A stretch of 44,220 nucleotides of DNA, from contig WELB01000135.1 in the NCBI GenBank assembly GCA_009602725.1, positions 256,705 through 300,924 on the forward strand, read 5' to 3'. This DNA is from Spirogloea muscicola. Lineage: Eukaryota; Streptophyta; Zygnematophyceae; Spirogloeales; Spirogloeaceae. The notes beneath the pieces were generated by a model. That model did no database searches. It had not been told where the DNA came from and worked only from the letters and a program-made list of their open reading frames with translations. Positions 28,869-44,220 of the stretch are shown in pieces. Every line of letters begins with the position of its first letter. Within the stretch, counting starts at the first letter, position 1. A program made the translations under genes and the position numbers.

Positions 28869-31800
28869 TCAATATAGGCCGGGGACGATCTTATACGGCA
28901 CCCGCTTGCAGTACATCAACCAGTACTTGCCATACCTGAGGTGGCACAATATCATTCACAAGAAAAACTCAGGTCAAGGTGTTGTCAGCTCTACTGGGGG
29001 CATGGTCTATTGTAGACGCACTCTGCTAGGACCACTCTCTTCAGATATCAAACCTGCTTTCAAGGTGCACTATAACGAGTCGTGGCCAACAGCCAGATCA
29101 TGGAGCAATGCTTACTTGCTGCGGCACCGCTTGTCATCCCGCACAGCCCGGTCGACCAGTAGGATAGTGAGGTATACGACGTAAAAGTACGGCAGTATCT
29201 GCACCAGTGAGACAAGTTGCCACGGCGCCAGAATGTCAGTTGTCAGGATCTTTGCTGCACAACAGTCGCACTCCGCTTCATGGACAAACAACATAAGCTG
29301 GACTGCTTCTTAGCAATGAGCACGTGCAAAATTGGGGGCAGAGACACCCACGTTGTTGAAGAGGCCGGGGAGAGTCCAGAAGAAGGCCGCCAGGATCTCA
29401 GGCAGGTAGTGGAAATGCCGGGACAAGCCCCACCTACTTAGTATCAAGCACACAGGGCAACTCTTTAGTGACCACAGCAAAGGCACCCTGGCACTGACTG
29501 GCAAGCAACAGGATGGTCAATGCAACACCACTGGCATGACCTGTTACTTCTAGCTTCCTCGTCTCAAAGCAATCCGAAGTTCAAAGACCTTGGTGCTGAC
29601 CAGCCAGAGGTCAGCAGCAGACTGGTCTTCGTCTCGCCACTCTCTGTCACATACGTGGCTTCAATCTACACATAGCACGGTTTGTAAAGCAGGTGTGTTG
29701 TGCTCAGAGTGGTTACAGCTGTGACTGGCTATAGATGCTTGACAAAGGGCAACCAAAGTGGTCAGGGCTTGATAGGTGCAGCTTGAGCAGCAACGTCTAT
29801 TGCTCCTAACACCTAAATGCACCCTAATACCAGTTACATTCAGGGGCTCATGCAATCACCTTTGAGGGCTTGGAGCCCCAGATGGTGCACTTCCCATGGG
29901 TAGCTCGAAAGTGCGTCCGCTGCCGGTCAGAGTCGTAGTTCACCCAAATCATCAGGACGCCCAGGAGGAAGATGGTAGCCGAGTTCTGCAAGCCATGGCA
30001 GGATGGCGTAACATTGTGTCAACTTGCTGTAGTTCTTGCAGCTGCACCTCAAGCAAGGCGACCTGATATAATTGACATGCCAGTCTCAGTACTAGTCGTT
30101 GCAAGTATCGGACACCAACAACAAGATGTGCAAACGAGCAGAGCGCCATGAATCTCTAGTAGGACAGCAGAATGCTGAGCACCAGCGCCAGAGTGGGAGT
30201 GGACAGAGCAGCTCTCGCTGCGCACTAGTCCTGGTAGCAACGAGCATAGATGGGCTAGCCTGCTGGTTCATGTCCTTGAGACCCTTCATCATCAGCGTAG
30301 GTTGGCAACTCTGCAGATAGAGAGGGGCCAGCGTCTGACCAGGGCGCCGAGATGGTTGGGGTGGTGGACAAGGTACATGGCTGGCGAGGTGTAGATGCAG
30401 GGGACCCACACCATGCAGCCCCAGCAGAGGTAGTATCCAGCTGGAGAGCTTCATTACATGGCAGCCAACAACAAGCGTTAGATCCTACAAGATCAGACCT
30501 GAACGAGAGACCTCAGAGTCATCAAGTCCAAGCTGACCTTGAAACGGCAGAGGTCACGGTGGAGGACATAATTGTAGGCTGACAACCAGCAATGCTCAAA
30601 CTGCAGGTCTAGGATTTCTAGACGTGCAGACTGAGACCGCAGGCTATGACAACGAGGTGCAGGATCACTCTGTAGAGCAAGCAAAAAGCAGTGTGAAGAG
30701 CAGCGGTCCAGACCGCGATCATGCATGATGTCCATGGTGTTCCAGTAGCCCGACTCCCAGTAGAAGAACTTGGAGCAGTAGGCCAGCATCAACACCACGC
30801 TCACCAGCATTGAGTCCGTCCTACGCCGTTCATATCATACTGCTCGGCACAATCAAAGTGCCACGTTGTCAGCTGAGTTCTTGCACAAGGAGCTGCCTGT
30901 TGCAAGCAGACTATGCTCTGCCTCAATTCCTGATGTAAACGGTTGTGCCTCATTGTGAAAAGATCAGATTTCAGACACATGCAGTGTTATCCCGAAAATA
31001 GAGGGATGATAGCCTCAAGAGCACATCCTGTATCACTTGACAATAATGCGAACTTGCAGTGCTATATGCTCTCACGATGACAAAGATCATTACCTGCTTG
31101 ATGGCATAAGTGATGGCCAGGACCGCCCAGCTCATCATCCCAAATCGGCAGTTTGTAAACGTCTTGATATCAAACCACTTGCCAATCCGTGGGTATAGCT
31201 CCATGCCCTGGCAGAGGATATCAGCGCGAAGCCTTGCTTGTCAGTTGATCCATTTGCAAGTTGCTTCAGCCGGATGCCTTTACAGGGCTGCTATTGCCAC
31301 CTACCCAGAAGAAGTCCTGGATAAAATTCCCCGACGACCCCCAATCAGATGACGATGGTGCCACATTCCCCTGCTCACAGAAGTTCACCAAAGATGACAC
31401 AGTGAGCTACATAGAGGTGCGCGACTTGTGGAGCAACAATATACTCCCTCCGCGAGGTGATACGAAAATGCATTACGCAATCGAAGGACAAGAACAGCTG
31501 TGCACATCATTCTGAGGAGAAAGTCGAATTTAGAGGCGGTGAGGAGCACTTACCTTGATGTAGAGGAAGACGCAGAGTGCAAAAGCGGTGATGTTCAACG
31601 CAGAGATGATTTCTCCGAGGTGATCATAAACCACGCTTGGGTTGAATATACCCAGCCTGCAGAGGAGGCAACCACAACAAAACCACTTCAACAGACATAA
31701 CAATGATTGAAGGACATCCAAAACTATTAGCTGAGGAGCGGGAAGTAAACGGCTCTGTGTTGTACACTGTACCTCCAGATACTGAGATAAGTCACCAGCG

Positions 31801-32445
31801 TGATGACGTATGCCTGGAAGCCGTTGCACTGCAAAAGCAGCAGTGACAAGAGGGCCAATGTATAATGGCCTCTCAGAGAGTCGCCAAACCGCCAAGTCAT
31901 GTCACCGAAGCTACTTGACATAAGCGGCGGGTAGCACTTACGTGCTGCTGTGGCTTTATAAGGACTTGGGTTAAGGTTAACTTTAGGGTTCGGAGTTAGG
32001 GTTCGGGATTGAGGTTGTCAAGCACCTTGTAGACGGGCCGGTTGCCAGCGGGCGAGACGGGGCCGAGCCACTCCTTGGCCGGGATGGCGAGCATGAGCAG
32101 GGCCTCGAACGCGGCGAAGGCGAGGATGAGGGCCCACGCCGTGGCGCCGGGCACTGGCCAGGCGCCGCGCACGGCGGGCCAGCCGCCGTCGCGGCAGAGC
32201 GCCGCGAAGGCCGCGGCGGAGCCTCCCAGCTTGGCCATGACGAACCACCTGCGCGGCCCCGGCGGCGCTTGCGGGCGCTCAGCACGGCTCTGCCGGCAGC
32301 GCCTCTCCGCTGCCGCTCTCGCGAGCCCATGCTCGCGGCCGTCGCAGAAGCGACGGCAGCTGCAACGGGCTGTGACGGCGGCAGCGGCGGCGGCGGCGGC
32401 GGCGGCGGAGGCGCACATGTACACGGCCACGGGCGGCGTGNCCAC
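28869..32445 (-). CDS. DWF5: Sterol delta-7 reductase / 7-dehydrocholesterol reductase
   Basis: NADPH-dependent ER membrane enzyme that reduces the C7-C8 double bond late in sterol synthesis. The peptide aligns with plant DWF5: EWLGPVSPAGNRPVYK (exon ending 32026), 31828-31773 (NGFQAYVITLVTYLSIW), 31656-31554 (IFNPSVVYDHLGE), 31370-31305 (NVAPSSSDWGSSGNF) and 31207-31094 (MELYPRIGKWFDIKTFTNCR). FFYWESGYWNTMDI is at ~30780-30730 and CWGCMVWVPCIYTSPAMYLV at ~30430-30370. After these come SDRQRTHFRATHGKCTIWG (~29940-29890), RHFHYLPEILAAFFWTLPG (~29420-29360), LPYFYVVYLTILL (~29200) and a last exon ending YKIVPGLY-stop at 28869. The junctions checked keep frame. The N terminus is unsettled: WFVMAKLGGS aligns inside the usual first TM region, so ATG 32238 is probably internal. 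The true start is upstream, either in the open frame to ~32445 (which contains an ambiguous base at 32441) or in a separate exon. Confidence 0.95.
31963..32014 (+). repeat. Degenerate TTAGGG-like repeats in the first recognised DWF5 intron
   Basis: Units CTTGGGTTAAGG, CTTTAGGG, TTCGGAG, TTAGGG, TTCGGGA lie 11-62 nt into the intron that starts at 32025 on the minus strand. On the sense strand of the gene they read CCCTAA-like. A similar patch (GGGTTCAAGGGTTTAAGGG) is at ~32497-32516 upstream of the gene. Confidence 0.75.
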
Positions 32446-34644
32446 GGCGCGCGCCGCGAGGGGCGCCGCGGGGCGCGGCGCCTGTGCCGGGCGGGGGGGT
32501 TCAAGGGTTTAAGGGCGAAACTTGGGGTTATGGGCGAACTTTTAGGCTTTCTTAACATCGAGTCAATCAATTTCAATCAGCCCTAACAGCCCTTGTTGTT
32601 TCACGGCAGAGGAGCCGACCGAGCCCTGTGGGCCCCCCGCCGGGCCACGTTTGCCACGTCACCGCCACGTCACCCCCTCCCGGCCGGCGTGTCACGCCCC
32701 CCGCCTAGTCAGCAGCCACGGCAGCCCGGAGGAGGGGCCACCCATCCCAGGGCCGTCCGGCCAACGACTCGGGGGCCGCGCCTCCATTGGAATGACTATG
32801 ATTGTGAGAATCATTGTCTCCTGCGGACGATACCTGCCGGACGACGGCGGACACAGCGTCCTTCGCTGCCGCCCAGGAGCTTATGACTCAGATGCTGAGC
32901 TGGCATCCATGTGGCATATCCGGCTGAGCTGGCCGGCTTCGTCCGACTGCCGCCGTTCGAGGCAAGGTCCTTGCCCTGCCTTGCCTTGCCTTGCCTTGCC
33001 TTGCCTTGCTTCGCCTTGTTTCGCCTTGCCTTTGCCTCCGAGCTGCCTCGTCGCCGAGCCCGTTCTCGCAGCCCGCACACGATGCCATGCGGTGTCAATG
33101 ATGTTCTGCCGCCGGCCTCCACTGCTCTCACTGCCGGCCACGACTTGAACACCCAACGTGTGCGAGCAGGCTGCCGAGTCATGCGTGCTTTCGCAGTGCC
33201 AAGGGCTAATTTACACGTGGCATAGACACCAGCCCGTGCAATGGTGTCCGGATCTTAGTGCCTGACCAGAAGTCAATGTGGTTGATGTGAAGCCCGAGTC
33301 ATGGAACGTCCTGCTCCAGTCATCGGTAGGTAGTATCATACGAGAGTACGCAATTACTAGGTCCAATTCAATTGCATCTACAATAAAGAGACTTCTCCCA
33401 GCTGGTATTGATAAACCTTATGTAGCAATGCAGATACTTGTCACAATGCCATTGCCATTTCTAATGAGCAATTTCCAAGCAGGTTCCAGCACACGATGGT
33501 ATTTCTTGCTGTAGGCCGTCAATTTCGCGCCTCCTCTACTCGCTATCATAAAAGTGTGACATGCAGTTTCATTCAGCGGTCCCAAACTTGAAGTGCAGCC
33601 TTTCTGAAGGGACTGAAGGTAAAATGATGTCAAAGTACTGCAGCTCTAACTCCAAGGCCTACTGCACTGATGCAGTGAGAGTGAAGCATCAAGCTAACCT
33701 TCAAACAACCGCTCTTCCTGTGCACAAGCATTTGCACCTGGACAAAGACATGTATGTAGATTAGATGCCAACTGCAGTCGTCAAAGAAGCAAGTACTACA
33801 TGCATTGTAATGTATGCAACTCAAGCGAGGGCACGGCTGCCTTTAACGGGCTTGTTGCTCAAACTTGGTGCAGGTCATCAGTAAATCATTCTTGGGTTTC
33901 TAATGACCTTGTCTTGCAACAACCTCATTCTGCCAACTGCTTTAAAGCTCTGCCCGATCAGTCTTACCGGGGAATCAAAGCTTCTGAAACAGTGGCATCA
34001 ACAATGGCATGATAGATGATGGCTGAAATGTGTCATCAGTTCATCATTCTATCCTGTCAGGATCAGGTCTGGCAGGCCATACCGCTGCACATGAGCCCAT
34101 TGAGATGTGGATAGGGCTGATAGCGGCAGGAAGAGGCATCTCCTCTTCCATCCATTTCCTTGCCATCCCTTGCCGCATTCTCCTGATCAGCTTCATAAGC
34201 TGCAAGCTGCAACCGCCTGAGTAAGACACTTAAACGAAGAGTGAGGCACTACATTCACAGGGGCTGCAGATTGTTTCACTCACCACCCTATACATGTACT
34301 TCCTATCAATAACGTGTATCAGAAAAATACACCCTGCACGTACACAATTGCACGTCCAAGCAGATCTTCGACAAGTCACACAGCAGTCTCACTCGGGGCC
34401 ACCCCAAGTGCAGCACCTGCACTGCTCCACCATGGCCTTGGGACTCTCTTGTCAGGTGCCCAACTCAGTCACCACATGCCCTGCAGTGTACAGTGAAAGG
34501 ACCGCCAGCTAGTTAATCAAAATCCCAACATAGCGGTCAACAACACTTGAGATACCAGCGGATCCTGAATACTTGCTGGACATTCTTGCCCCATGACAAG
34601 ATCTACACTTACTCAGAGCATGACTGCACTGAGAAAGGTTGTCA
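32446..34644. other. Intergenic region upstream of DWF5 and downstream of formin
   Basis: About 2.2 kb. 32446-33200 is GC-rich, with telomere-like remnants and a CCTTG pentanucleotide tract; the rest is AT-richer. A GC-rich plus-strand frame at 32651-33148 runs through the CCTTG tract and has no recognisable domain. I see no tRNA, transposon ends or conserved protein between 33200 and 34644. Confidence 0.5.
32970..33037 (+). repeat. CCTTG pentanucleotide microsatellite
   Basis: About six perfect tandem GCCTT/CCTTG units (~32977-33008), followed by degenerate TTCGCCTTG units. It lies outside recognised genes, about 500 bp upstream of DWF5. Confidence 0.9.
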
Positions 34645-37600
34645 TCATAGCTTCCCATCCTTCTCATGTTTGTCAGAGGTTGTTGCTTTAGGTCCAAGTC
34701 TTCCAACAGCCCGGAAGTAGTCCTCAATATTGGGTGGTGGCTTTAAGGGAACTTTTTGAGGGGCCTTCTTCAAGTCTGTCGTTTGCTCAGACACTGCAGT
34801 GGTCTCATCTCGAGGTGTTTGCGGTGGTTCCTCCTCCTCCAGGGCCCCCCTGTCAGCCAGCTGTACTCCTTCCTCTCTCCTCTCCTCAATGTCCTGCTCG
34901 AGCGTTACCTTCTCCGTACTTTCTGAAATATTCAGCTCTGCCCTTCTCCTCTCGCCCTCTGCTTCCTGCTCAAGCCTCTCCTTCTCTGCCCTCTCCGCAT
35001 CTGCCCTTCTCTCCTCTTCCTTGGCTCTCTGCTCGAGCTGCTTCTTCTCCACTTCAGCCGCCTCCTTTTCCGCTTTCATCTTCTCCTGCTCGAGCAACTC
35101 CTTCTCCAACTTTTCCGCCTCCAATTCCGCAGTTCTCCTTTCCTCCTCAGCCTCCTGCTCAAGCCTCTTCTTCTCCAGTTCTGCAGCTTCCCTTTCTGCA
35201 TTCTTCCTCTCTATCTCCGCTTCCTGCTCAAGCCGTTTCACCTCCAGTTCTGCCGCCTCCGCTTCTGCCTTCCGCTTCTCCTCAGCTTCCTGCTTACGCC
35301 GCTTCTCCAATTCTGCGGCCTCCAGTTCTGCCCTTCGCAACTCCTCGGCTTCCTGCTCGAGCCTCTTCCTCTCGTCTTCTGCTGCCTCTAATGCCGCCTG
35401 CCTCCTCTTCCCCTCAGCTTCTTGCTCAAGCCGCTCCTTCTCAAGCTCTGCCGCCTCCAGCTCTCTCCTTCTCCTCTCCTTGTCAGCCTCCTCCTCCAAC
35501 CGCTTCTTCTCCAGCTCCACGGCCTCTGCTTCCGCCCTTCTCCTCTCCTCTTCAGCTTCCTGCTCGAGCCTCCTCTTCTCCAGCTCTGCCGCCTCCGCTG
35601 ATCTCCTCTCCTCGTCAGCTTCCTGCTCGAGCCTCTTCTTCTCCATGGCTGCTGCCTCCGCTTCTGCTGCCAGCTTTCTCCTTGCCTCGGCCTCCTGCTC
35701 CTGCAGTTTCTTCTCCAGCTCTGCCGCCTCCCTCTTTGCCCTTCTCTCCTCCTCCTCCGCAATCTGCCGGAGCCGCTCTTTCTCCAGCTCTGCTGCCTCC
35801 TCCTCTGCCACTTTCCTCGCATTGTCAGCCTCCAGTTCCAGCCGCTTCCTCTCCAGCTCCGCTGCCTCCCGCTCTGCCCTCATCTTTCCTTCCTCAGCCT
35901 CCTGCTCGAGCCGCTTCTTCTCCAGTTCTGCCGCCTCTTTTTCTATCTTTTGCCTCTCCTCCTCAGCTTCCTGCTCGAGCCGCTTCTTCTCCAGTTCTGC
36001 CACCTCCCTTTCTGTCCTTTTCCTTTCCTCCTCAGCTTCCTGCTCGAGCCGCTTCTTCTCCACTTCTGCCGCCTCACTTTCTGTCTTTCTCCTCTCCTCC
36101 TCAACCTCCTGCTCGAGCCGCTTCTTCTCCAGTTCTGCCGCCTCCCTTTCTGTCTTTCTCTTCTCCTCCTCAGCCTCCTGCTCGAGCCGCTTCTTCTCCA
36201 CTTCTGCCGCCTCCCTTTCTGTCTTTCTCCTTTCCTCAGCCTCCTTCTCTGACCTCTTACGCTCCAGGTCTGCCGCCTCCATGTCTGCCTTCTTCCTCAC
36301 CTCCTCAACTTCCTGCTCAAGCCTCTTGCTTTCCAGCTCCTTTACCTCCATCTCTGTCCTCAATTTACCGTCCTCCTGCTTGAGCTGATTCTTCTCCAAT
36401 TGCGCTGCCTCCTTCTCCCCATTCTGCGCTTGCTCTTTGACTGCCTGCTCGAGCTTCTTCTTCTCCATTTCAGCCGTCTCCTTTTTACTCCTCTTTTCCT
36501 CAGCTTGCTGCTCAAGCCTCTTCTTCTCCAGATCTGCAGTCTCCTTCTCTTTGGTCTTCCTTTCCTTCTCAGCTTCCTGCTCGAGCCTCTTCTTCTCAGC
36601 TTCAGCCATCTTCGTGTTCTCCTCAATGGCTCTCTTGAAGAGAGTGATGAAGTTGAACAGTATCAGAACCACTGCGAACAGACACCAACATAAGTGACGG
36701 TCACCTTGAACGTCAAGTTGAGAATAATGCGAGTGCCACTGCTAGTCTCGTACCATCTACCACCACATTAGAGTCACTCTGAAAGCCTGCAATCTATCTG
36801 CAAGGTATGGATGCGTCTGGCCAGATAGGCCTATCATGGACCTGCCATCATTTATTATCTTGTACAGCCCTTTCTTAGTGGCACACTCCCTCACCTTGCT
36901 CGAATGGGCATCGAGCTGGATCTTCACCGAAATATTGTGCCAGCATGTCTGCAGCTCTACTCTGTAGAACAAGAAGCCCAGATCAACGCCCATATCAGTG
37001 TACCCACCCCTTGAGAATAAGCAACATCGCAAATAGACCAAGGCATACTTGCTTGGACGGGTGAAGAGGCTCTGATGCAGTAGTCTTCATGTAACTCAAA
37101 TTGCCCAATATGTAAGAGAGAGTCAAGCACTCCTGCGCCCCTCACTGTCAATTACTGTGTCACACTCACAAGCTTATAGATTGAGAGTGCAGATCTGCAA
37201 TCGCATATGGCCACAGGCAAACTGCATTAGAAAGAATTACACACCACTTCTGTGTACAGCGATGTCACTGTCCGGACCTCTGCCTCAGCTTGCTCCAGGA
37301 ATCCGCTCAGAGTCTGCATCACCAAAGAAGAAGATGACAGTCTAACATGAGGTGTCTATTCTACCTACAAGCTACTGGCTACCTACGTGCTACGTGCTGC
37401 TACTTACTCTTACTCTGACTTACTCCTGCTACAAGCTTTGTGATAAGCAATATGTAACAGCACAAAGTTGACCTCCATTGCAGAATGAGGGTGGCAGGGA
37501 AAGCCTCTGGCTCATGTACGCAAGTGAATTCCGCGAGCATAACAATCATGCTGCACATTGTGAGATAGCGTACCTGTCGGAAGCCGACTGAGACAGGACC

Positions 37601-40600
37601 ATCTCCCTCTGACGCTGTTAACTCTTGCTCAACCTTCTCCAGTCCCTTGCTGATAGCTTGCATCTCTTCAGCCAGTGACTTCAATTGTACCTATTGCATA
37701 TCACAATTGGAGGAGCATGGGATGAGAAACAGCCCTATTGTCAAGAAAGGCAGTGCTGGTCAATGCGGCACGCTACTTCATATTGCGGAAGACCCCCCCT
37801 CATCAAAAGCTTGGCGATCCTGTTTCTTGGCCAGGGCAATTGTGGAGTAAGTACCTTGGCAGCATCACCAACATGTGGCATCTCCTTCCAGAAGTCCATC
37901 AATTCTGGCAGCTTCTCAGAAAGTACCTGCAAGCATTTGCACAAGAAACATTGACACATTGCCAGACCTAGATTGAGGCCTGCTAGCTGAACAACCATTG
38001 CCCGGAAGATACATGCCAGTGGTTAACCAGGTCATGGAGAAGGGTCATAAAGGACAGCTTAGACCCAAGCACTCCTCTGCCACATAAGGCCTAAAGCTGC
38101 CTAAAGCACATCAAATTTCAATACATTGTCATGGGAGGTCCTTGCATGTCAAGCCGGTCAAGTAAATGGGAGCGGCATTCCAACCTTGCACAAGTAGTGC
38201 ATGAGGGTCATCTTGTTGCCCCTTGCACGAGTATCGGTGAGCTTGAGTAGGCTGTCCAACTTGAAGCCGATGGCTTGACCTGAAATATCTCCAGAGCAAC
38301 TCTCAGCAATGCTGCCTGGAATGTCATCCTTCTGACGTGCAAGCCAAGCCTGGATAGTCAGTGGCTGACTCTTCAAGAGCAGACAGAGAGAACCACGTCA
38401 TCAGCCTTATCAGCCGGCACTGACCTCTTGTTGTACCCTGATTCAGCGCATTGCCAAGGGACAGTATTGTCTGCATAATGCGCCTCAATGCCCCTGATTC
38501 CCTGACCTGCATCATGATTGCGAAGCGTCAGAGCTGACAGACCCGCATATCAGAAGATCTTGCACAGGATTCCGGGTTACGTACCTCTCGTGACGCATTC
38601 CTGACGAGCTCCAGGTTTGCCCTCAGATCTGCAACCTGCAACAGCGGCAGCAAATACTGCTCTCAGCACTCATGTTAGCTTCCCTACACTGGAGTGTCTA
38701 AACGCACAGAGACATAGAGAGAGAGAGGGGGATAGAGAGGGAGAGGGAGGGAGGGAGGGAGGTAGGTTGCGAGAGAAAGAGAAGGAAGCACAGCAGGTAG
38801 CCAGCTGTGTACTCCATGACAAGCAACAGGGACAAGCCCACAAAGCCTCCAGCACACAGCACCTGCGTTTTGAACTGCAACTTGAAGGAAAAGACTCTGA
38901 GCTTTGCCTCCATTCGAGGTACTCGCATCATCTCCATGAAGAAAAGCTCACACTTGCCCAATTGCGTTATGTCTCCAGTGAAAGCCTGACATTGCCAGAA
39001 TCGGCATGAGTCCTCTGACATGGCCAATGCATCATATGCAGAATGAAAAGCTCTTGACAGATGTCAAGGATGGGAGGATGACCATTGAGCAATGCAAGTT
39101 AGGACCAATGAGGTATGACTTTGACCAGGACGACTATCTCTCACCCTCAGCTTCTCCATCTCATCCTTGGTTGGGCAGAACTTGAGAAGGTTCTCCACCT
39201 GATCAACATCCAGCACTGTGGAATCGAGTGCGAGCACACCTTTCTGCCCATCCAATCAAGATCAGGAAATGAATGCATGTTTGTGCTGACCGAACATGCT
39301 CAATTGTCAGCTAATAGACTGATGGCCACGAGCACCGAGAACAAGTAAGATCTGCAAGAAGGCAGTGTTGATTCAAATAGACTGATAAGCTGGCTAAAGA
39401 TCCACCAAAGAGCATCTGTTACGTCCTCTGGATTTCAGATTGCCTACTCCTGGTCCTTTGACCAAGGCCTGCCCAAGAGTCCATCCATAGCATACTGCTA
39501 TTGACCAATCATTGTCAGCAATTGGTGTCCAGTTCGACTTTGATGCAGCATGGGCTGCTCAGTATGAGCTTGAGGCAGAACTCACAAACATGTCTGGCAA
39601 GGGCATCTTCACTTTGCTCAACATGATTGCGCAGTTGTTGGCCCTTCTCAAATCCATCTGCAAAATTAAGGCTTGTGCAAGTCAGCGCTTATAAAAGTGC
39701 CGGCTTGCCAGGTTGTTGTTGTTGTTATCTCGTCTAGACTGACCACTTCATATATCTGCCATGCTTTAGAAGCAGGCAAGCACAAAATAGTGCAGTCAAT
39801 TCAATGCATATAGATCAGAAATGTACCAGGTGTATCTTCTCAGGCTTTCCTCCAAGCTTAGCAGCCTTGGCCTTGTCAGATTCAGCACTTTTGGAATTTG
39901 CTGGAGTTGCAGTGGAAAAGAGCGCTTCCAGCTCCGTGATGTCAAATGTGGGCTCCCTGACAGGCCAGATAATCAGAAGCTCAATAATACGTCATGCAGA
40001 GCAGGATGTCAAGACCACTGCTAGTAGATCATCATTGTCATGGCAAAGACGGTGCAGAAATGTAAGGCTATACATTGACCTCCCCCATGCATAGCAGGAT
40101 AAGGTGTGACATTAGTCTTTACCTATTAAAACAAAAATGTGAGGAGGCCCTAGCTTTGAGAAAGCCCTACAAAAATAGTATACCAAAGACTCAAGGCTTT
40201 CAAGATATAGAGCACACCTGGCCTCTTCATTCTCCTTTTGAGGTTCAGACCAGAGGCTGCCTTCGACTGCTCGGGTGACCTTCACCCAATGGAGGGGCCT
40301 CAGTGCAGCCTTCTTCGGGACTGGCGGGGGGGGAGGAGTGCCTGCAGCTGGACTGCCTCTTCCTCTTCCCAGTCCTGGTGGCGGCGGGGGTGGCGGGGGG
40401 GTTCCAGGTGTCAACCTCTTGCCTGGTGGCGGCGGAGGCGGTGGAGGGGGTCCTCCACGGCCTCTTCCACCTGGTGGTGGTGGTGGTGGCGGCGGAGGGG
40501 GCGGGTTTCCCTTACGACCTCCAGGAGGTGGTGGCGGCGGTGGAGGGGGAGGGGGCCCTGCGTGTCCTCGCCTCGGAGGAGGAGGCGGGGGAGGTGGAGG

Positions 40601-43600
40601 AGGAGGAGGAGCTGCCCCGCCGCCGCTGCTCCGTCTGGGTGGTGGGGGTGGAGGGGGAGGTGGAGGTGGCGGCATGGAGCCTGAGCTTGCTCGTCGTGGA
40701 GGGACTGGCGGTGGAGGTGGCGGAGGAGGAGGGGGTGCACCACCTTCCAACCGTGGGGCCTCTGGAGGGGGCTGTGAATGAGGCGCTGCAGGATCAGCTA
40801 ACTGGGCTCGACGAGGAGGGACAGGCGGTGGCGGAGGGGGCGGAGGGGGCTGCATCCCACCTGAGCGCGGAGGAGGGACCGGGGGTGGAGGAGGGGGAGG
40901 TGGCGGGCCTCCTGCTGATCTACGGGGAGGCACTGGTGGTGGGGGTGGCGGAGGTGGGGGGCCTCCTTCTGATCTACGACGCGGAACGGGGGGCGGAGGT
41001 GGTGGTGGAGGGATGGACCCTGCGGACCTACAGGAAGGGGCAAGCGGAGGCGGAGGTGAGAGCGGCTGCAGGACCTCTTCTATCCGATGCGGAGGGATGG
41101 GGTAAGGAGGAGGGGGAGGAGGGGGGACGATGCGGCGTGGTGGCTTAGGGGGTGGTGGGGGCGGAGGGGGTGGAGGCCTGCCAGTTACTGCCGGCGGCAA
41201 GGAGAGAGGAGGAGCGAGCCCGTCACTTCCATTAGCACATGCTGTAAGGGGAAGCTCGACAATGGAGGGAATGGCCTCGGTAACCCGGGGCGCAAGTGGA
41301 GGAGTGAGAGGAGGGGTGATTGTGCCAATCGACGACTCCGGCTCGGACTCTGTCTCCCAGTCGGAGCTCCCATTCGCCAACTTCCGGGCCTTCGCCTGCT
41401 GCTGGAGCTGCAACCGCTTTGGCGCCTCGCCATTCTCCAGGCTCTGGCTTGCATACTCATCATCCTCGTCACCAAGAGTGGAGGACGAGAGAGTCCGCTT
41501 ATGCAACGTCGACTGCTGCCTGTCAGCAAGAACCTTGTCCCAACTTGTCGCGAGACCGTTCTGAGCCGTGATGTGCCTCAGCAACTGCATCGCAGCTTCT
41601 GAGTCCATCCCTGTGTTCTCGCCCCATGTGGCCCCACTGAAGAGCTCCTGCAGCTTGGAAAAGGCCTCGACAGGAAGCCCGCCTTTCTCATCCCCCTTTC
41701 CATTGGGAAGAGCAACAGCTGAAACCTCTGGTGCAGGTGGCAAAACGTCAAGCTCTCCAAAGAGAACCTGCACGAGGAGTGATGCTGCTCAAGCTTGTCA
41801 AGCATGGCCTGCTCTTACACGGTTTTGACTGATAACCTTCGCAACTGATGACCTCTCGCTCGACAAGGAGACAACGACAAGAAGCCAAACTGCCTACATG
41901 GCACTCCAGTAACATCACTGCTGAGTGGCTGGCCAATATTTACTCAGTACTGTCCCAAAAGCAAGAAGGTGAAGAGTCTGGCAGGTCCAAAACCCGAGGT
42001 TGTGAGATATCCTGCTCATGCAGTGAACAAAGACACATGCATACTGTCGTAGGGCAGTTACCTCAGAGCGGAAGTCCTTAGTGAAGCGCTCCTTTGCCCC
42101 CCACAGCACGTCAATGTCATCCCTTGAGAGCATTAGCATGTTCGACCGCAAGAACGCGGTGTTGAACATGACCCTGAACATCATGGTCTCTCGCCGCGAC
42201 TCCACTTCTAAGTGGATGACCTCCACAACCACGTCTCCTTGCACTGCACATTGGATGTCCATCTTCACTACCTCGCAATCGACCTGGAAGAGAGACATGG
42301 ACCCACAAATTTATCAATCGCTCACGATTGCAGTCATGCGAAACCTGCTATAGCTCCTCCCGCTTCTTCTCAGCAACGTCTCTGACTTTGTACATGACCA
42401 TTCACAACAATGTCTCTGCATGCTTGCAGACTGCAAGCTTAGCGACGAGTAGGAAACTCTCAGTATACCTGTCGGTAGTGCCTTGGGGATCTCTTCTTGG
42501 TGGTCGAGAACAAGAGTGTGGTATCCTGGTCAGGGAAATGGGGATCCCTTCCATAAACCCTGATCATTGGCCTGCAGCCGCTTCCTGAGTCAAAGCTGGG
42601 AACCGAGCGAAGGATGAGGCAGTCCAGCGTCAGGGCCCTCTCTGGCGGAGGCCACTCCGCCATCATATTGTTTCTTCTGGTCACGTACTGCAGGTACCTC
42701 ACCTGCATGCATAGACTAGCAAGCTCTGATGTCGAGGCAAACCCGTGCTTTTCAGAGGTTATTGACTGAGCAGCTAGGACCACACGATTGAGCAACTGGT
42801 GCCAAGGCCCAGTAGATCGTGAAGTTTGACATGCATGTCATCCCCTGTGCCCTGATTCTTTTGCACTGGGTCAGCAAAAAGGAGCAGGCAAAGTTGGCAT
42901 CGTCCTGAGAGCAATGCCAACAGGCACATCACTGAAGGTGGTGATAGCAAGTTCTCATCCTTGAGGTCAAGACAAAGCACGGTGGAGACATACCTGTGAG
43001 GGGATCGGACTAAGAGGCGAGAGCAGTTGCAACAGGCCTTTAGGAGCCTCTCTCTGAATCATCTCCAATGTGCGGAGCTCCTCTCGATGATCCTTTTGGT
43101 AGAGAAGAATGGCAGTGAGGATGAACGCGAGCAGTGGCCAGCCGCCGCGCTCACAATGCATCAGAACCAAGTTCTGAGCTCCACTGTCCAGTTCGAGCCA
43201 GCTATTGTAAGAGCGGAGGAGGTGGTGGATCATGGCCATCGAGATGACGGGGCAGCCTTCAAACTGCCGGGGGTAGTCCATCACGATCATGTCCTGCCCT
43301 GCCAGCTGCTCACTCAGCTGGCTCCGCCTCTCCCCTTCCTGCACGACTGGATGCAAATTGGTCACCAGAGTTGGCTGATGCGAGTGTGACTCATCGCCAT
43401 CCTGAATTTAGTAGCTCAGCGGGGGGAGAGCAGTGTCCCACCCGGAAATTGAAGACCAGGAATGCAGCCTCTGGTAGCTGCTCGTGTAGCTGCGTCGCGA
43501 CATGGCGCACGTACACGGCGTAGGCGTCTTCCCGTAGAACCTCCGTGGAGAAGCACGAGTCAAAAACTGGGCAAGTGAAGATGCAAGATGGAGATTTTGA

Positions 43601-44063
43601 GAACGGCGAAAGCGATAAAGGCCACCGAAACCAGCAGCAATGAGGTCAGTGAGTCGCTGTGTAGCTGCGGCAGTCAAGTGCCACGCTGAGGAACGATGCC
43701 TGGGGCTAATGACTGCAAGCGAAGCTGCGACGTGCACAGGCCGCCTCAAGTGCGGCGGATTGCAAAGTCTGCGGCCAGCCAGCACTGCTTCTGCTGCTTG
43801 TGGTGTCTCTGCATGTTCCAAGGACACTCCTGCCAGCGCTATCTCCCAGCCTCGGCGCCACTGACAGTCTTCCGTATAGCAGGGCCCAAGCAAAGGGTCG
43901 TCCATGTTGCCTAGGCACACTGTGCAGCAAGCCGCGCCGGCGGCCTCGGTGACAGGGGCCCGGGCGTCCCCACAGCAGCCTCACCGTAGATGCGGTCGGT
44001 GACCTGGAAGAGGCCGTCCGGCGGCGCGCGGCGGCCGAACCAGCCGCGCCACGTGAACGCCAT
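34645..44063 (-). CDS. Class II formin: PTEN-like, C2, FH1, FH2 and long charged helical tail
   Basis: Actin nucleator/elongator. Eighteen exons join in frame to 1852 residues: 44063-43985, 43566-43442, 43338-42994, 42702-42469, 42283-42062, 41767-40218, 39956-39827, 39657-39586, 39243-39145, 38985-38863, 38635-38585, 38506-38425, 38279-38185, 37926-37855, 37690-37574, 37313-37245, 36961-36895, 36671-34645. Residues 1 to ~335 are the plant class II PTEN-like phosphatase plus C2 region (VFDSCFSTEVL, MDYPRQFEGCP, HCERGGWPLLAF, MMFRVMFNTAFLRSNMLML). The signature loop lacks the catalytic Arg, so phosphatase activity is unlikely; phosphoinositide/membrane binding is the family role. FH1 (~540-820) has over a dozen polyproline runs for profilin. 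FH2 (~825-1180) is complete: LRPLHWVKV, DLRRANNCAIMLSKVKMPLP, LDVDQVENLLKFCPTK, SLGNALNQGTTRG, YFGEDPARCPFEQ. The tail (~1195-1765) is Glu/Lys/Arg-rich repeats, then a Pro-containing end, PPPNIEDYFRAVGRL...DGKL. The ATG at 44063 (MAFTWRGWFGRRAPPDGL) matches the family start. Confidence 0.96.
34905..36612 (-). repeat. Coding ~69-bp tandem repeats (23-residue charged helix) in formin last exon
   Basis: About 25 imperfect copies of a unit built on EAAELEKKRLEQEAEEER plus a short K/R-T-E spacer. The most uniform copies are 23 residues, at ~35830-36240; outer copies vary at 20-23 residues. The E/K/R pattern with few hydrophobic positions resembles a single alpha-helix (ER/K) or caldesmon-type helix more than a classical heptad coil. 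The whole tail lies in one exon. Confidence 0.9.
38708..38785 (-). repeat. GA-rich (pyrimidine on sense strand) tract in formin intron
   Basis: GAGAGAGAGGGGGATAGAGAGGGAGGG-type simple repeat on the plus strand, inside the formin intron between 38863 and 38635. On the sense strand it is a long CT tract upstream of the acceptor. Confidence 0.85.
40320..41190 (-). other. FH1 polyproline-coding region
   Basis: GGN-rich on the plus strand, coding on the minus strand for repeated runs of 7-12 prolines separated by R-R/S-x-G-type linkers. This is the profilin-binding FH1 segment of the formin; antisense glycine/tryptophan-rich open frames here are shadows. Confidence 0.9.

Positions 44064-44098: not shown

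Positions 44099-44220
<122 letters not shown>

Follow-up and report, generated by a model that had tools for sequence, protein, structure and literature searches.

A class II formin gene of Spirogloea muscicola encodes a long charged tail that may form a single-helix arm ending in a conserved tip

Why a formin should carry hundreds of charged, repetitive residues beyond its FH2 domain, and what shape such a tail would take, is the question raised by a locus of Spirogloea muscicola. The window, by which we mean the whole stretch of 44,220 nucleotides that was analysed, contains an 18-exon formin gene on the minus strand, running from the start ATG at 44063 to the stop TGA at 34645 and encoding a product of 1852 aa. 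The gene model was built by hand and has GT-AG borders at 17 of 17 introns. Its features are as follows:

43985..44063, minus strand: exon 1, holding the ATG at 44063; 98.7% identity in both other copies of the gene
42062..43566, minus strand: exons 2-5, PTEN-like domain and PTEN C2 domain
40218..41767, minus strand: exon 6, from the last part of C2 through a linker and the proline-rich FH1 into FH2
36895..39956, minus strand: exons 7-17, bulk of FH2
34645..36671, minus strand: exon 18, last FH2 helix (VVLILFNFITLFKRAIEEN), charged, predicted helical tail, non-repetitive end and stop
35083..36601, minus strand: tandem array of a 69-bp (23-aa) unit, 22.4 copies (Tandem Repeats Finder)
34648..34749, minus strand: conserved basic tip, the last 34 residues, PLKPPPNIEDYFRAVGRLGPKATTSDKHEKDGKL; dN/dS 0.09-0.11, pI 9.3

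Exons 2 to 5 occupy 43566-43442, 43338-42994, 42702-42469 and 42283-42062 (minus strand). The earlier note had placed the last exon at 36671-34645, continuing in frame from an FEQ junction, and this proved exact: the acceptor reads gttcgcag followed by TGGTTCTG and is in phase with exon 17 (36961-36895, ending in FEQ). No Pfam match at E 0.01 came from ten further ORFs in the window, nine of them drawn from a list of 48 and one from a second list.

In the product, Pfam recognises PTEN C2 at residues 202-339 (PF10409, E 3.9e-36) and FH2 over profile positions 5-372 of 372 (PF02181, E 2.6e-116), and the alignment of FH2 to solved formins extends through the end of the domain (best DAAM1, 2z6e, E 2e-50; mDia1, 9b27, E 5.8e-44). 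The phosphatase-like part, without a Pfam match of its own, was recognised by eye, as was the proline-rich FH1 preceding FH2 (residues ~531-818). The PTEN-type active-site motif is HCxxGxxR; the loop in the translation, read by eye, is HCERGGWP, with the catalytic Arg missing. Loss of this Arg from the PTEN-like domain is described for class II formins (PMC3820618). Judged by domain content and order, the window gene is a class II (PTEN-FH1-FH2) formin. The plant class II formins AtFH13, AtFH14, AtFH18 and AtFH20 and those of moss share the same order of PTEN-like domain without catalytic Arg, C2, FH1 and FH2 (PMC3820618); compared with them by description only, the window formin differs in having 656 residues of charged, predicted helix and tip after FH2. 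The class II assignment and the long charged tail that the earlier note had combined are both borne out by this succession of PTEN C2, FH1, FH2 and tail. The FH1 exon contains a 54-bp repeat of its own (40873-41002, 2.4 copies), and FH1 may have grown by tandem duplication too.

The tail begins after the last FH2 helix (after RAIEEN) and stays in frame within exon 18, comprising a charged part of 560 residues followed by 96 non-repetitive residues. A length of about 600 residues with about 25 repeats had been estimated for it; the charged repeats are indeed in frame, but the tail is longer (656 residues) and the 23-residue units number about 24 (560/23). The consensus of 11 clean units is AELEKKRLEQEAEEERRRAEREA. 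The 560-residue arm is 61.8% charged and 15.7% Ala, lacks Pro and has 5 Gly; Ala and large hydrophobics together make up 159 of its residues (28%). The conserved last residues include the stretch LKPPPNIEDYFRAVGRLGPK. Pfam reports no family in the tail at E up to 1 or 10. Against PDB sequences the tail had a single match, at chance level (SOX-17, E 0.23), and the tip had none. IEDYFRAV, within the tip, bears a likeness to the DAD pattern on which we place no weight, as it has no Pfam DAD match and any short amphipathic helix would show such spacing. Unlike DAD-bearing formins, the window tail has no Pfam DAD match, whether searched whole or as its last 90 aa (E up to 10); in this search HMMER filters drop most weak matches, and the Pfam profile misses many DADs (PMC2386819).

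We searched the host genome (153 Mb, 471 contigs) for further copies. FH2 has 18 matches on six contigs; all six PTEN C2 matches listed fall on three of these, as do all three matches listed for the tail end, and the three matches listed for the tip correspond to three formin genes. The search with the 23-aa repeat scores best candidates only, and all 36 matches listed (E up to 0.001) fall in the three terminal exons. Besides the window copy (contig C135), two collinear 18-exon copies are present (contigs C29 and C189). The three products have 1852, 1833 and 1856 aa, all with the tail, and exon borders correspond at all 18 exons. Collinearity extends past the gene to window positions 29076 (C189) and 30999 (C29), which are the ends of the fetched stretches; the region downstream of the gene, 29076-34644, has ~86% identity with the collinear C189 copy. 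This downstream collinearity with C189 suggests that the formin copies are segmental, as a genome triplication predicts, and such a triplication is stated for Spirogloea muscicola in PMC7994812. Both the three class II copies and another three FH2 loci agree with such a triplication. These further loci (L013, L014 and L015, on contigs C86, C320 and C2) are without PTEN C2 or charged-repeat matches among those listed; they possibly form a second triplet and are perhaps class I. Just before the formin start, an uninterrupted stretch of 122 A (44099-44220) adjoins a 1366-base N gap (C135, from 300925 on); the C29 copy has ordinary sequence at this position and the C189 copy an N run, and the poly-A is likely an artefact of the assembly edge. 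A search for FH2 relatives in a viral and a genomic collection of contigs, which cover viruses, bacteria and archaea and so have no bearing on algae, gave 1 and 16 stretches matching a pattern, none of which was confirmed.

The reading we favour, with a probability of roughly 0.55, is that of a class II formin whose post-FH2 tail, through tandem duplication of a 23-residue unit, has become a single alpha-helix (SAH) arm, after which come a disordered segment and a conserved basic tip, the two tips of each dimer reaching a putative partner.

The charge profile along the tail is basic-acidic-basic in all three copies. The tail is basic over its first 60 residues (pI 9.2 in 3/3 copies) and acidic in every 100-residue block past the first 100 (pI 4.5-5.3; five blocks in each of three copies), and its net charge as a whole is -42 to -59. 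The profile bears on a rival reading, in which the tail is a side-binding arm lying along actin or microtubules that raises processivity or bundles filaments. Such an arm was among the functions first suggested for the tail; the basic beginning agrees with it, and the idea is weakened because the tail is acidic past its first 100 residues. Actin and microtubule surfaces are acidic as well. Side binding is in keeping with the effect that formin tails have on processivity, an effect that in some cases varies with tail pI, but pI fails to predict processivity for Fhod tails (PMC10797183), so charge alone is indecisive either way. Since the INCENP single helix, which acts as a leash, also binds microtubules (PMC4571873), side binding keeps some credit; we regard it as unlikely.

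The favoured reading, a stiff arm presenting a tip, depends on the shape of the helix. AlphaFold2 models the tail of the window copy, from its single sequence, as one helix over residues 2-598 of 674 (597 residues, mean pLDDT 70.3), and that of the C189 copy, with the other two copies aligned, as one helix over residues 2-583 of 679 (582 residues, mean pLDDT 75.0). At 0.15 nm per residue the modelled helices, drawn with moderate confidence, would measure ~90 nm and 87 nm, matching the single helix of about 90 nm that had been proposed from the sequence; the arm of ~560 residues would contribute some 84 nm, the range of 87-90 nm including the FH2 end helix. After the long helix the models show mostly disorder and then a short tip helix, IEDYFRAV in the window copy and IEDYFRA in C189, at low to moderate confidence. 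Within the long helix pLDDT falls in places: in C189 to 53-62 over residues 141-180 and to 57-63 over residues 351-370, and in the window copy to 56-68 over residues 381-420. These dips may mark hinges. AlphaFold2 tends to draw long helices for charged sequence such as this tail.

Charge-pair counts were compared with 2000 shuffles. Pairs from E/D to K/R at i+3 (z 7.6) and from K/R to E/D at i+4 (z 7.9) are enriched, and like charges at i+4 are depleted (z -7.8). The E/D to K/R pair at i+4, usually held to be the more stabilising orientation, shows only a slight excess (63 vs 52.3 expected, z 2.2), and for K/R to E/D at i+3 there is no excess (45 vs 52.4, z -1.4). The E to R orientation at i+4 is supported as stabilising in PMC5812594. 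The arm thus combines richness in charge with the opposite pairs at i+3 and i+4 that mark SAH domains, two pair types being strong, one weak and one absent. The second mark of such domains is the lack of a hydrophobic coiled-coil seam. Our heptad analysis used our own script, not a published predictor, and one control, tropomyosin. Large hydrophobics fill heptad positions a and d at 0.27 vs 0.26 in shuffles; the register breaks into 44 runs, the longest of 38, vs one run in the tropomyosin control, and power at 3.5 residues is 0.7 in the arm vs 32.5 in that control. The strongest hydrophobicity period, 3.82 residues (power 9.7), is a harmonic (23/6) of the repeat unit. By this script no seam appears, with a slight excess if Ala counts: treated as fully hydrophobic, Ala brings a/d occupancy to 0.53 vs 0.47 shuffled (sd 0.014), and the number of windows at 0.75 rises from 0 to 39 of 533. 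A canonical heptad coiled coil is unsupported, there being no persistent register and an a/d occupancy equal to that of shuffles for large hydrophobics. Because neither a heptad core of large hydrophobics nor a lasting register is apparent, the evidence favours a single alpha-helix rather than a coiled coil for the arm.

The FH2 dimer sets two tails side by side, and they could pair as a coiled coil or other bundle to make one stiff rod. The joining of the tails by FH2, the 28% share of Ala and large hydrophobics, and the Ala-inclusive excess with its 39 windows would all accommodate this. Pairing is opposed by the broken register, the absence of a 3.5-residue signal, the lack of windows at 0.75 once Ala is set aside, and the 23-residue unit itself, each copy of which moves the heptad register by two; we consider it quite improbable.

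Whether the tail matters to the protein can be judged from differences among the three copies, for which dN/dS was computed per region in three pairs with our own Nei-Gojobori script. Values are 0.03-0.05 in the PTEN-like part, 0.12-0.20 in the linker, 0.15-0.23 in FH1, 0.04-0.05 in FH2 and 0.29-0.36 in the charged tail. The whole 96-residue end has 0.29-0.34, and its last 34 residues 0.09-0.11 with 94-97% identity. Exon 18 shares 90.3% (C29) and 92.3% (C189) identity with the window copy, and its indels, of 6 and 63 bp in C29 and 3 and 12 bp in C189, leave the frame intact in all four cases. Introns have 84.6% (C29) and 84.8% (C189) identity, and 48 of 58 and 47 of 55 of their indels have lengths not divisible by three. 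Within the tail, 2 of 60, 2 of 50 and 3 of 56 single-base non-synonymous differences gain or lose Gly or Pro, vs 18.8-19.1% expected, and 37, 34 and 29% gain or lose charge, vs 46% expected. Because dN/dS between the copies is low, and lower still at the tip, we take the tail for a selected part of the protein, under purifying selection looser than that on FH2, with stronger constraint on the tip. A separate gene or a non-coding minisatellite, the former named in advance by the earlier note as a refuting outcome, is very unlikely given the in-frame indels, the selection and the conservation between copies.

A nearly neutral expansion of last-exon repeats, tolerated as helical and without specific function, would explain why dN/dS is so much higher in the tail than in FH2 and why the C29 copy is short of about one unit (63 bp vs C135). 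It accords poorly with the purifying selection and avoidance of Gly and Pro, with arm lengths that stay within 5% in the three copies (560, 541 and 565 residues) and with the strong conservation of the tip past the repeats, and we rate it as improbable, below pairing. It is scarcely credible that alternative splicing or a different end keeps the tail out of the main protein, or that the tail is part of some other transcript, as the first codons of exon 18 encode the last FH2 helix and the frame is open to the stop in 3/3 copies, whereas the 600 bp past the stop have only 80.7% and 81.4% identity with 10 and 9 indels (two pairwise comparisons with the window).

An origin for the arm can be proposed. 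The first unit (AEAEKKRLEQEAEKERKTKEKET) starts ~10 residues past the point where the FH2 profile match stops, and the matching place after FH2 is charged in mDia1 and DAAM1 too; for these reasons the arm would have grown as the helix that follows FH2 in this formin was duplicated in tandem. For pN/pS we compared 11 clean units of 23 residues, out of 19 unit starts found with a protein pattern, a way of choosing that may lower pN. The ratio is 0.40 in the coding frame; the other two plus frames have 0.92 and 1.03, and the frames of the minus direction 1.14, 0.55 (also low) and 1.08. Opposite the array (34692-36388), long open frames of 563 and 542 codons lie on the plus strand. These are probably a by-product of the repetitive codon pattern, because the coding minus-strand frame has the lowest pN/pS.

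SAH domains are also carried by caldesmon and myosin VII. Like those of INCENP, drebrin and myosins VI and X, the arm is charge-rich, with opposite charges at i+3/i+4 and no canonical heptad seam; it differs in exceeding the 213-residue INCENP case (PMC4571873), in its 23-residue units and in its place on a formin. SAH domains occur in about 1.5% of the genes of a species and are thus common (PMC5812594), and the word formin is absent from the available part of that text. The start of the tail resembles the tails of mDia1, DAAM1, Capu, Fhod and INF2, which are likewise charged and helical just past FH2; the sequences of mDia1 and DAAM1 align into it. Formin tails range from ~0 to >200 residues (PMC10797183), and inverted formins have a large C-terminal extension (PMC3820618), and so the tail is not unique by its length. 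In INF2 the term 'single alpha-helix' refers to a WH2/DAD peptide of 25 residues (PMC12871907); in the accessible portion of PMC9705415 the term occurs only in a reference. The plant formin architectures given in PMC2386819 include no such element, and its text, as far as available, is without the words 'coiled' or 'helical'. The earlier note's view that no formin of this architecture has been described holds for the open-access literature covered (SAH, streptophyte algae, Zygnematophyceae, class II), in which no formin with such an arm was found.

How the arm might act can be outlined. The FH2 dimer would sit on the barbed end, with the PTEN-C2 part presumably holding the membrane. The basic first ~60 residues would touch the filament, as is thought for other formin tails, and the acidic stiff helix would stand off from it. 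Two tips per dimer could then reach a putative partner tens of nm away, the arm serving as tether, spacer or recruiter. The analysis itself shows the gene structure, the selection on the protein, the avoidance of helix breakers, the missing canonical heptad seam and the conserved tip; we infer the monomeric helix, the stand-off, the existence of a partner, the direction of the arm and its origin from the formin's own helix. Conservation within the tail is highest in the last 34 residues, and this points to an arm that presents a tip; arm length differs between copies, so its exact length is not critical. A more specific version, which we hold only tentatively, makes the tip a conserved docking peptide on a ~90 nm single-helix 'fishing rod' for each half of the dimer, derived from the formin's own post-FH2 helix and linking the filament end at long range to a membrane site, a microtubule or another filament.

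Class II formins, SAH domains and long formin tails are each known; what appears to be new is an SAH-like arm on a class II formin, of which the open-access literature covered yielded no other case. Formin tails tune nucleation and processivity, and SAH arms serve elsewhere as linkers, springs and leashes. A formin that unites the two would offer a natural way to test whether a stiff arm is able to position a machine that builds filaments. Simple truncations would separate arm from tip, and the arms of the three genomic copies are natural variants. If the fishing-rod version is true, Spirogloea muscicola would possess a type of formin with built-in long-range tethers.
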